A DNA stretch of 64,000 bases. It comes from Flavobacterium aquidurense. GTDB taxonomy: Bacteria; Bacteroidota; Bacteroidia; Flavobacteriales; Flavobacteriaceae. The notes under the pieces are model-generated. The model saw nothing but the letters and a program-made list of their open reading frames with translations. It did no database searches and was not told the origin of the DNA. Within the stretch, counting starts at the first letter, position 1. Every line of letters begins with the position of its first letter. The translations under genes were made by a program, and so were the position numbers. Shown here piece after piece: positions 54,291 through 56,991 of the stretch. Where the stretch lies: NCBI RefSeq assembly GCF_001404985.1, contig NZ_JRLF01000014.1:310001-374000 (forward strand), written 5' to 3'.

Positions 54291-54308
54291 TCTAATCTTT
54301 TAATCTAA

Positions 54309-54575
54309 AGCTCCGGCGGAGCGATATATTTATAGTCAATTTTGTATTCGTTATTATTATAAGCTCCAGCGGAGCGACATGTTTATAGCCAATTTTGTAT
54401 TCGTTATTATTATAAGCTCCAGCGGAGCGACATATTTATAGCCAATTTTGTAATTAGTTTTTAATATCAGCTCCAGCGGAGCGACACATTTATAGCCAAT
54501 TTTTTATGCGCAATTATAATCCAGCTCCAGCGGACCGACATATATTTTTAGAACGATTCGATATGTCACCGCGAT
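54309..54575. repeat. 53-bp tandem array with GCTCCAGCGGAGC hairpins
   Basis: Five units starting AGCTCC(A/G)GCGGAGC at 54309, 54362, 54415, 54469 and 54523 (period 53, 53, 54, 54). Each carries the hairpin GCTCC-AGC-GGAGC, then GACAT.TTTATAG.CAATTTT. The last unit has GGACC instead of GGAGC. A single inverted copy (TATATCGCTCCGCTGGAGCT) lies at 54606-54625. The array and its inverted copy occupy most of the gap before the flavodoxin-RidA gene. Confidence 0.9.
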
Positions 54576-54841
54576 GGGGTTTTATTGGTATGTATTTTAA
54601 ATTTTATATAAATATATCGCTCCGCTGGAGCTCTACATACATTGTTTTGATCTTTTCTATAAATATGTCGTCCCAATGGGACTTAAAATAAATTATACTC
54701 GAAACCTTAATTAAGATAATAATAACGCTTTTTGATATTGTAAGAAGTAATTTTGCAGTCCCAAAAAAGAAACTTGGTTTTTGAAATAAAAAAAGCTTCT
54801 TTTTTGAGATTATTCATTACAAATTATTTAAAATTACCTTC

Positions 54842-56002
54842 ATGAAAAAGCAATTACTCGTATTATTAATAGCGCTATTTATAGGTTTTGGTGCCAATGC
54901 GCAAACAAAATCATCTGAAACAAATGTGTTGGTTTTGATTTATTCTCAAAACGGCGGAACTTATAAAATGGCAAAAGCTATTGCCGAAGGAATTCAGGAA
55001 TATCCAAATACTAAAGCGACTTTAAAACGTGTTCCATCCATAAACTCAAAAGAAAAACTAAATGCTGAGGTAGAAAAATTACCTGTTGCAACGATCGAAG
55101 AATTGGCAAATTATGACGGAATCGCTTTTGGAAGTCCGGTTCATTTTGCGAATATTAGTGCTGATATGAATTACTTTTTCAGCCAGAGTATTCCGCTTTG
55201 GACTTCGCGAGCTTTAGAAGGAAAACCGGCAACGGTATTTATGTCCGCAGGATCTGGGGCAGGAAAAGAAGCGGCCATTTTATCTTTCTGGAATATTCTG
55301 GCGTCGCACGGAATGGTGATTGTACCTACCGGAATTATGGGAACAGCAACTTTAGACAAAACTGTTCCGCAAGGAAATACTCCGTTTGGTGCAACTGCAT
55401 TGACAGGATCTACAGGAACTCGTCCGTCACAAAGTGAATTGAATCTGGCTAAAGAACAAGGTAAAGCCTTGGCAAGAGTTACCGCTGGATTAAAAAATAC
55501 AGAGAATATAAAGTCTGTAAAAACAACTTCGGCTGAGACTAAAACCGATATCAACAAAACATTAAAAGACAATAATATTGTACTTCCTGAAGCACCTAAA
55601 CCGGTTGGAAATTACGTTCCGTTTACGATTTCAGATCATAAAGTATATATTAATCAGGTGGCGTTGAAAGACGGGAAGATTTTAAATCCGGGAAAAGTTG
55701 GCGCAACAGTTACAGAAGATCAGGCAAAGGAAGCAACATACCAAACGATGCTAAATGTTATTGCAGTTTTGAAAGAAGCTTGCGGAGGCGATTTGAACAA
55801 AGTAAAACAATGTGTGCAATTGACAGGATATTTTAATACCACTCCAGAATATACGCAACATGCAGGGCTTATGAATTCGGCTTCGAATTTGACGGCTTTG
55901 GTTTTTGGCGAAAAAGGAAAACACGCCAGAGCAACAATTGGTGCGGTTTCGTTACCGATTAATTCGGCTGTAGAAATTCAGGCGATTTTTGAAATTGAAT
56001 AA
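54842..56002 (+). CDS. Exported flavodoxin/WrbA-like domain fused to a RidA domain
   Basis: 386 residues. Signal peptide 1-20 (LFIGFGANAQT). Residues about 27-195 are a flavodoxin-like domain with the FMN phosphate loop YSQNGGTYKMAKAIAEG (34-50) and GSPVHFANISADM, as in WrbA-type NAD(P)H:quinone oxidoreductases. A Lys/Thr-rich linker (about 205-250) leads to a RidA/YjgF domain (about 262-386): GKILNPGKVGATVTEDQ, a central TMLNVIAVLKEA helix, and HARATIGAVSLP near the end, which keeps Arg363 (the catalytic Arg of RidA) and Glu378. RidA enzymes hydrolyse reactive enamines/imines from PLP enzymes. A flavodoxin-RidA fusion with a signal peptide is unusual; periplasmic location and the joint reaction are inference. 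Confidence 0.85.
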   Translation: MKKQLLVLLIALFIGFGANAQTKSSETNVLVLIYSQNGGTYKMAKAIAEGIQEYPNTKATLKRVPSINSKEKLNAEVEKLPVATIEELANYDGIAFGSPVHFANISADMNYFFSQSIPLWTSRALEGKPATVFMSAGSGAGKEAAILSFWNILASHGMVIVPTGIMGTATLDKTVPQGNTPFGATALTGSTGTRPSQSELNLAKEQGKALARVTAGLKNTENIKSVKTTSAETKTDINKTLKDNNIVLPEAPKPVGNYVPFTISDHKVYINQVALKDGKILNPGKVGATVTEDQAKEATYQTMLNVIAVLKEACGGDLNKVKQCVQLTGYFNTTPEYTQHAGLMNSASNLTALVFGEKGKHARATIGAVSLPINSAVEIQAIFEIE

Positions 56003-56340: not shown

Positions 56341-56991
56341 TTATGATTTTGGCAACGGAGCTCCTACGGCAATATCGCAGCGATGTCCGGGTTTTCCGTG
56401 TGCTGGATTCATTCCGTCTGCTACTGCTTCTTCGGTACTTAATAAAGCGGGAACTGCATTTGCAGGTGGTGGCGTAACGGTATAAGTTTGAGATGTTGTA
56501 CCACTTTGTGCTGTATTTGCAACAGGTTGTTTTGTCGCTGCAGAATTTAAAGGCGCTCCAACAGGAATATCACATCTGTGTCCGGGTTGTCCGTGTGAAG
56601 GATTCATGCCTTTGCCTACTTTTACAGGTACTGTAGTGGTTGTGGTGACTACATTTTGTTGGCCTGCATTTACTTGTACAGGTTGTGAAGGCTGAGCTGT
56701 TACAGTTTGTCCTTGTGTTGGAGCTGAATTCAACGGTGCGCCAACGGCAATATCACAACGATGCCCCGGTTGTCCATGTGCAGGATTTATTCCGTTAGTC
56801 TCTCCCATTACGGTATTAGGATTCGTCACCGGATTTTGAACGACTGATGGTGTTTTTGTCGTGTCTTTTGCCAAGCCAAGTTTTACTAATTCAGATGTTG
56901 GCGTGCTTTCTTGTGGTTCTAATTCTTTCTTACAAGAAGTAAAAACTAAAGAAGTAACAAGTATAGAGGTAAGGAGTATTTTTGAATTCAT
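56341..56991 (-). CDS. Lipoprotein with three HGxPGHRCDIxVGAPL repeats
   Basis: 216 residues. Lipobox FTSC with Cys20. Three copies of a 22-residue block, GxNPxHGxPGHRCDIxVGAPL, at about residues 67-88, 128-149 and 193-214, separated by Thr/Val/Gln-rich low-complexity linkers. Each block has two His four residues apart and a Cys two after the second His (HxxxxHxC), an arrangement that could bind metal or heme. Only the lipobox adds a Cys outside these blocks. The gene is convergent with the flavodoxin-RidA gene across a shared terminator. I know no characterised function for the block; metal binding is a hypothesis. Confidence 0.8.
   Translation of the reverse strand: MNSKILLTSILVTSLVFTSCKKELEPQESTPTSELVKLGLAKDTTKTPSVVQNPVTNPNTVMGETNGINPAHGQPGHRCDIAVGAPLNSAPTQGQTVTAQPSQPVQVNAGQQNVVTTTTTVPVKVGKGMNPSHGQPGHRCDIPVGAPLNSAATKQPVANTAQSGTTSQTYTVTPPPANAVPALLSTEEAVADGMNPAHGKPGHRCDIAVGAPLPKS

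Follow-up and report, generated by a model that had tools for sequence, protein, structure and literature searches.

Rid proteins are generally taken to be cytoplasmic guards against reactive imines from PLP and flavin enzymes. An open reading frame of Flavobacterium aquidurense, lying in the 64,000-nucleotide stretch of contig NZ_JRLF01000014.1 analysed here (the window), raises the question of what a Rid domain might do when it is joined to a flavodoxin-type domain and preceded by what looks like an export signal. The frame begins with ATG and encodes 386 amino acids plus a stop codon. Its parts, with the evidence for each, are as follows:

54842..56002, plus strand: leader-WrbA-Rid1 fusion gene (open reading frame, profile matches above curated cut-offs, full-length relatives)
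54842..54901, plus strand: Sec/SPase-I-like leader, residues 1-20 (sequence; home-made n/h/c-region test)
54923..55495, plus strand: WrbA-type flavodoxin domain, residues 28-218 (NF002999, TIGR01755, residue map, Foldseek)
55496..55561, plus strand: variable linker, residues 219-240 (alignments; predicted structure)
55562..55999, plus strand: Rid1 (PF14588) domain, about residues 241-386 (PF14588, alignment to 3d01/2otm/9bk9/9bkb, Foldseek)

Architecture, distribution and origin of the fusion

In profile searches, residues 28-218 score 159.7 bits against NF002999 (cut-off 141) and about 143.8-146 bits against TIGR01755 (cut-off 132.5), and the protein matches Pfam FMN_red at 41.4 bits (cut-off 24). 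Residues 245-378 score 65.3 bits against PF14588 (cut-off 35), and the RidA profile TIGR00004 gives 30.1 bits, far under its cut-off of 106.25; the Rid part is therefore Rid1 and not RidA. In an alignment with two Rid1 proteins of solved structure, 3d01 (Atu1372) and PA0814/9bk9, Arg363 and Glu378 fall on their conserved Arg and Glu. A sequence-only reading of this DNA had placed a leader, a WrbA domain and a RidA domain retaining Arg363 and Glu378 in a single chain. Profile matches and alignment bear out that layout, with the leader predicted from sequence; the Rid domain stands as such, and its assignment to the RidA subfamily gives way to Rid1.

The fusion is a new architecture made of known domains. 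No paper describing a WrbA-Rid1 fusion was found in the portion of the open-access literature available to us, and none is described in the accessible passages of PMC8469502 or PMC9537276. The survey in PMC4433059 set out to find Rid domains fused to members of other families; a term search of its main text returns no 'flavo', and its supplements may list a WrbA-Rid1 fusion.

An AlphaFold2 model built from a 49-row alignment contains two confident domains (mean pLDDT 86), whose mutual orientation is poorly predicted (pTM 0.54); confidence is low at residues 17-23 and at the linker (pLDDT below 50 for residues 222-233). Foldseek matches the model to the WrbA structures 3b6i, 4dy4, 4yqe and PnpB and to the Rid1 structure 3d01, with target-normalised TM-scores mostly about 0.85-0.94. 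The flavodoxin-type domain matches FMN-bound WrbA, and binding of FMN by the fusion is a prediction. Two domains that both exceed curated cut-offs, separated by a variable linker of low confidence, do not require tight coupling. The chain could thus be two independent enzymes, an ordinary quinone reductase and an ordinary imine hydrolase, fused only for co-expression or co-export and sharing no intermediate, which we consider rather unlikely in view of the ancestry of the domains and the state of their pockets (see below).

A search for the same architecture in other genomes found that the fusion recurs. At 1e-20, 56 of 398 Flavobacterium genomes have a match (the window's own included), comprising 46 unbroken full-length fusions, one interrupted copy and nine Rid-only matches. 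The interrupted copy (L156 4760-5955; L numbers denote loci throughout) lies in a single-contig genome, G118, and has its WrbA and Rid parts in separate frames. A sample of the phylum yielded six genomes with the fusion among 395, four of them Flavobacterium (again including the window's) and two from another family of the same order. In a scan of the genome collection, the best 80 of 202 relatives are all full or near-full-length fusions and span eight genera of Bacteroidota: Flavobacterium (including one [Flexibacter] record), Chryseobacterium, Elizabethkingia, Empedobacter, Myroides, Pedobacter, Sphingobacterium and Chitinophaga. A sequencing join or chimera is ruled out by these many full-length relatives in other assemblies; because the same fusion occurs in other genomes, it is not an assembly artefact.

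The fusion is also present on pYGP1, a predicted conjugative plasmid of Sphingobium sp. YG1, with 52% identity over its whole length; among 554 plasmid records with a match, only pYGP1 has one place covering 80% of the query. There an SDR gene stands on one side of the fusion gene and a gene for a DMT-family transporter on the other; transposases and a LysR gene, which is divergent from the SDR gene, are nearby. The surrounding region (L069 1-25164) holds genes of the IS21, IS66 and IS1380 families, genes for metal/cation transporters and one for a metal/formaldehyde-sensitive repressor, so that this copy of the fusion lies in mobile DNA.

The window's own genome gives no second TIGR01755 match at 0.001 and encodes one further PF14588 protein, which stands alone and has no leader. 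WrbA itself is rare in the phylum sample, occurring in 9 of 198 genomes at 1e-30, the window's included. The long open frame that precedes a WrbA-like domain at L195 is spurious.

The origin of the fusion was approached with two domain trees containing 29 of 86 fusions (quick searches, unrooted, with SH-aLRT support only). The 29 fused Rid domains fall on one side of a branch from 17 stand-alone Rid1 domains (SH-aLRT 91), and the 29 fused WrbA domains on one side of a branch from eight stand-alone WrbA domains (SH-aLRT 100). This pattern, read from sequence, would fit a single fusion event and subsequent spread. That representative fused domains lie together in both trees also argues against two modules joined for co-expression or co-export only.

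The leader and the probable location of the protein

The protein begins with MKKQLLVLLIALFIGFGANA followed by Q, in which a charged n-region, a hydrophobic core and an A-N-A site can be recognised by eye, suggesting cleavage after ...ANA and a leader of about residues 1-20. We assessed such leaders with a home-made n/h/c-region test anchored on the first WrbA strand, which 74 of the 82 fusion loci passed; the other eight were unscored, the anchor motif being unmatched, and by eye they carry leaders too. With starts taken at the M of the longest open reading frame, the test was passed by 69 of 71 fusions, 62 of 215 control ORFs and none of 46 AraC neighbours of the fusion gene. Since that many controls pass, the test is non-specific on its own, and the weight comes from conservation of the leader: across genera the leaders end mostly in ...A-Q, though their sequence diverges. 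The stand-alone WrbA proteins of E. coli and Labrenzia begin directly at the domain, without a leader. Taken together, these features suggest that the fusion protein is probably exported, apparently to the periplasm.

Those Rid proteins that have been characterised are cytoplasmic, as is WrbA. This background, together with the acceptance of control ORFs by the leader test, would suit a fusion that stays in the cytoplasm, its N-terminus being uncleaved or lacking an export signal (a cytoplasm-facing membrane anchor or a mis-called start). We hold such a location to be highly improbable, given a leader with n-, h- and c-regions and its usual ending that has been kept across genera despite divergence, the leaderless WrbA proteins just mentioned and the leader-like N-termini of several stand-alone Rid1 relatives.

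Those relatives qualify the sequence-only reading, since they bear on whether an exported Rid1 is special to the fusion. It probably is not: among the stand-alone Bacteroidota Rid1 rows, which are best hits and a non-random sample, 7 of 17 have leader-like N-termini by eye (L004, L005, L049, L056, L060, L066 and L068). Such proteins (L049, L060, L066, L068 and others) share with the fusion a leader-like N-terminus and a Rid1 domain; they differ in having no flavin domain, in keeping the SG/AG loop described below and in lying outside the fusion branch. As an observation in its own right, exported Rid proteins in Bacteroidota may form a wider, little-studied group.

Conserved and replaced residues in the two pockets

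Residues were counted in 86 fusions and compared with 8 stand-alone WrbA and 17 stand-alone Rid1 proteins, using E. coli WrbA numbering from Met1 for the flavin domain; the two stand-alone sets are small. The 86 rows include many close relatives, 31 of them from one Flavobacterium clade, and are therefore non-independent; L050, whose matched stretch contains a stop, was excluded from the alignments.

Much of the WrbA framework is retained. The fusion shares with WrbA (NAD(P)H:quinone oxidoreductase type IV; 3b6i/4yqe; PnpB 4la4/4laf) the fold, Trp98, Phe80, the loop glycines of the E. coli protein and scores above curated cut-offs, and over the domain the Foldseek rows for PnpB and WrbA of the E. 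coli type show 38-44% identity. Phe80, Asn82, Trp98, Gly115, Gly117 and Gly119 are each kept in 86 of 86 fusions and Gly13 in 85. The window protein has the loop 35-SQNGGT-40, Trp120 and Gly137/139/141, and in its numbering Trp120 and these three glycines are likewise found in all 86. Only three of the eight stand-alone WrbA proteins have Gly at 115 and one has it at 117, so that Gly115 and Gly117, being variable there, are weak evidence for FMN binding. The first loop reads SMYGHI in E. coli WrbA and S-x-N-G-G-T in most fusions, a form that we take to be closer to the classical flavodoxin phosphate loop.

The substrate side of the pocket is a different matter. Arg79 and Tyr143 are presumably substrate-pocket residues of WrbA. 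The accessible part of PMC12247152 counts Trp98, Thr116 and His133 among the key residues at the catalytic site of WrbA. Thr116 is replaced by Ser in 86 of 86 fusions, and none of the 86 retains Arg79, His133 or Tyr143. In place of Arg79 the fusions have His (45), Tyr (40) or Asn (1); in place of His133, Val (51), Ser (31), Ile (3) or Leu (1); and in place of Tyr143, Ile (84) or Leu (2). Stand-alone WrbA proteins keep the three residues in 8/8, 8/8 and 6/8 rows, respectively. The corresponding residues of the window protein are His101, Ser155 and Ile165. Scores against TIGR01755 set the fusion apart as well: it reaches about 146 bits, whereas seven Bacteroidota WrbA proteins score 294-321, with one more at 144. 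The fusion thus differs from WrbA in these replacements, in its attached Rid1 domain and in its predicted export. The name NAD(P)H:quinone oxidoreductase, which the Sphingobium copy bears, was considered and set aside, because a pocket feature of that family (Arg79/His133/Tyr143) is absent.

A comparable mixture of retention and change is found in the Rid1 domain. All 86 fusions keep the equivalents of Arg105 (Arg363) and Tyr17 (Tyr258) and the presumed equivalent of Asn88; 83 keep that of Glu120 (Glu378), the other three (L102, L111 and L129) having Ser. The 'SGQ' loop has become a one-residue-shorter 'INQ' in all 86 (Ile270-Asn271-Gln272 in the window protein), and two residues past the Arg the fusions have Thr, not the usual Ala. 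Among the 17 stand-alone Rid1 proteins, 15 have 'SG' or 'AG' before the Gln32 position, one row stops short and one reads AI; that the small-Gly loop is a defining Rid1 feature is our own judgement. Compared with the Rid1 imine deaminases (PA0814/9bk9, ACIAD3089/9bkb, Atu1372/3d01), the fusion has the same fold and the equivalents of Arg105, Glu120 and Tyr17, and differs in its 'INQ' loop, the Thr after the Arg, its putative export and its flavin-fold partner.

What these residues mean for activity can be judged from work on other Rid proteins. According to the accessible passages of Niehaus et al. (PMC4433059), Arg to Ala almost abolishes imine hydrolysis, and Ala in place of Tyr17 or Glu120 has little effect; two Rid1 proteins, PA0814 and ACIAD3089, have imine deaminase activity in vitro in the part of PMC5619798 available to us. 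The kept Arg, these mutant effects and the in vitro deamination by Rid1 proteins together suggest that the Rid module may be active on imines, with a non-standard substrate loop. Loss of the 'SG' loop could also mean that canonical imine hydrolysis has been lost. Since the Rid loop and the WrbA pocket are altered in all 86 fusions, the protein should not be presumed to hydrolyse imines or to reduce quinones with NAD(P)H. The quinone-imine chemistry suggested in the sequence-only reading is hypothetical.

The same replacements speak against an ordinary quinone reductase joined to an ordinary imine hydrolase, the more so as NAD(P)H, the canonical donor, should be absent outside the cytoplasm. 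They would suit a binding or sensing protein, one in which catalysis has been lost in one or both domains and the altered pockets take up an extracytoplasmic ligand, perhaps to scavenge flavin or a reactive compound: both pockets are replaced clade-wide, the Rid Glu is lost in three of 86 fusions, and the AraC-type regulator that adjoins many copies of the gene suggests a small-molecule signal. Yet Arg363, Tyr258 and the WrbA residues Trp98 and Phe80 are kept in 86 of 86, as would be the case for active sites under selection, and we judge a binding or sensing role unlikely.

Gene neighbourhood and possible function

Gene context was compared at 82 loci (81 plus the window), of which 31 belong to a core Flavobacterium clade and 51 do not. 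An AraC-family gene lies directly upstream of the fusion gene, and divergent from it, at 46 of the 51 non-core loci; the five exceptions are three Elizabethkingia loci, one Sphingobacterium locus and the Sphingobium plasmid. No AraC-family gene is found beside the fusion at any of the 31 core-clade loci, the clade to which the window belongs. Six of the 46 AraC neighbours were run against Pfam (L099, L101, L104, L110, L115 and L129), and all have AraC_binding plus HTH_18. Other flanking genes are common within genera and mostly not between them. Since these are so rarely shared between genera, the link between AraC and the fusion is likely functional, although the 46 loci are non-independent.

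In the core clade, the fusion is accompanied by a gene for an S30AE-domain (HPF-like) protein at 31 of 31 loci, and by an SDR-like gene at 25; genes for a small lipoprotein-like protein, a SnoaL_3 protein and an ammonium transporter are each present at 30. The window's lipoprotein-like frame (56341-56991, minus strand), recognised by eye, contains three 'GxNPAHGxPGHRCDIAVGAPL'-type repeats and has no Pfam match at 0.001; a member of its cluster stands beside the fusion at 30 of the 31 core-clade loci. The window's SnoaL_3 gene, whose product looks exported, and its ammonium transporter gene lie near the fusion gene, which brings to mind a linkage of ammonia release to uptake. We set this linkage aside and retain it as no more than a lead: the SnoaL protein is present in 316 of 398 Flavobacterium genomes, far more commonly than the fusion, so that it is simpler to suppose that the fusion gene lies close to a common locus. 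At L155 8654-11734 (genome G395), the amt, SnoaL_3 and fusion genes are tightly packed on one strand, in an order that differs from that of the window.

Among the Chryseobacterium neighbours are genes for CinA (20 loci), SDR (9), DUF6766 (10), pyridoxamine-oxidase-like (19) and MocR/PdxR-like (13) proteins, one member of each having been tested. A DapB-like gene lies directly downstream of the fusion at 3 of the 82 loci (L129, L130 and L140; one Chitinophaga and two Chryseobacterium), starting about 20-35 bases after the fusion gene, at 9176-9976 in L129 and in the same place in the other two; it scores above the TIGR00036 cut-off in L129 and L130, and the L140 gene belongs to the same cluster. 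A dapA equivalog lies near the fusion in L103, in a cluster shared by L109 and L116, and a DHDPS-family gene near the fusion at 13 Chryseobacterium loci, of which one was tested and fell under the dapA cut-off. The dapA/dapB neighbours were found post hoc, are at most suggestive and carry no weight in the interpretation below.

Upstream of the fusion gene, window positions 54308-54543 hold a tandem array (period about 53, 4.4 copies, 87% matches) of the palindromic motif AGCTCCAGCGGAGCGA, one inverted copy of which lies nearer the gene at 54618-54632. The 16-base core of the repeat has 19 exact occurrences in the genome, on seven contigs, and the array looks like a dispersed intergenic repeat family.

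How, then, might the parts work together? Tentatively, and at less than even confidence, we favour an exported bifunctional flavin-imine enzyme whose flavin does not use NAD(P)H, possibly serving detoxification, over independent activities, a binding or sensing role or a cytoplasmic enzyme. Sequence, comparison and the predicted structure contribute the leader, the WrbA and Rid1 folds, the conservation of the whole as a unit and, in most lineages outside the core clade, the AraC gene. The protein would leave the cytoplasm unfolded and bind FMN outside. Its flavin module would oxidise or reduce an amine, an imine or a quinone-type electrophile, and the tethered Rid module would hydrolyse the resulting or parent imine or enamine to a carbonyl compound and ammonia. 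NAD(P)H should be lacking outside the cytoplasm, and three WrbA positions are replaced clade-wide; the electron partner is therefore probably not NAD(P)H and could be a diffusible or membrane quinone, or oxygen. The most likely role would be to detoxify or salvage a reactive nitrogen compound at the cell surface, with induction through AraC where an AraC gene is present. We infer every element of this scheme, from substrate and electron partner to export, FMN binding and the coupling of the modules.

Several features count against the bifunctional enzyme, namely the lost 'SG' loop, the lost Glu in L102, L111 and L129, and the absence of AraC from the core clade. We know of no WrbA-type domain that oxidises amines. 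Assembly is a further difficulty: in the passages available to us, WrbA is described as a tetramer (PMC3430622) and Rid proteins as typically trimers (PMC4433059), two symmetries that a single chain would have to reconcile; the chain may assemble into a larger cage or lattice. A precedent for pairing a flavin enzyme with an imine hydrolase exists in the clusters of FAD amine oxidases with RidA or Rid3 covered in the accessible part of Niehaus 2015 (PMC4433059), which differ in comprising separate genes and FAD enzymes, whereas the fusion is one putatively exported chain with a flavodoxin-type fold. A more specific version of the bifunctional enzyme would be a new type of periplasmic flavin-coupled deaminase, in which a WrbA fold working without NAD(P)H makes or reduces an imine and hands it to the tethered Rid1 domain, whose substrate loop is re-shaped, and AraC senses the substrate; we regard this version as doubtful.

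It is safest to say that the gene encodes a conserved WrbA-Rid1 fusion, probably exported, in which both pockets have been re-tooled. Active sites altered alike in the compared relatives point to chemistry outside the inner membrane. If so, Bacteroidota would encounter or exploit reactive imines or quinones beyond the cytoplasm, and a WrbA-type flavin domain could exchange electrons with a partner that is not NAD(P)H. The residues changed in this clade can be targeted directly by mutagenesis, and the AraC regulator that adjoins the gene in most lineages provides a handle on the inducer.
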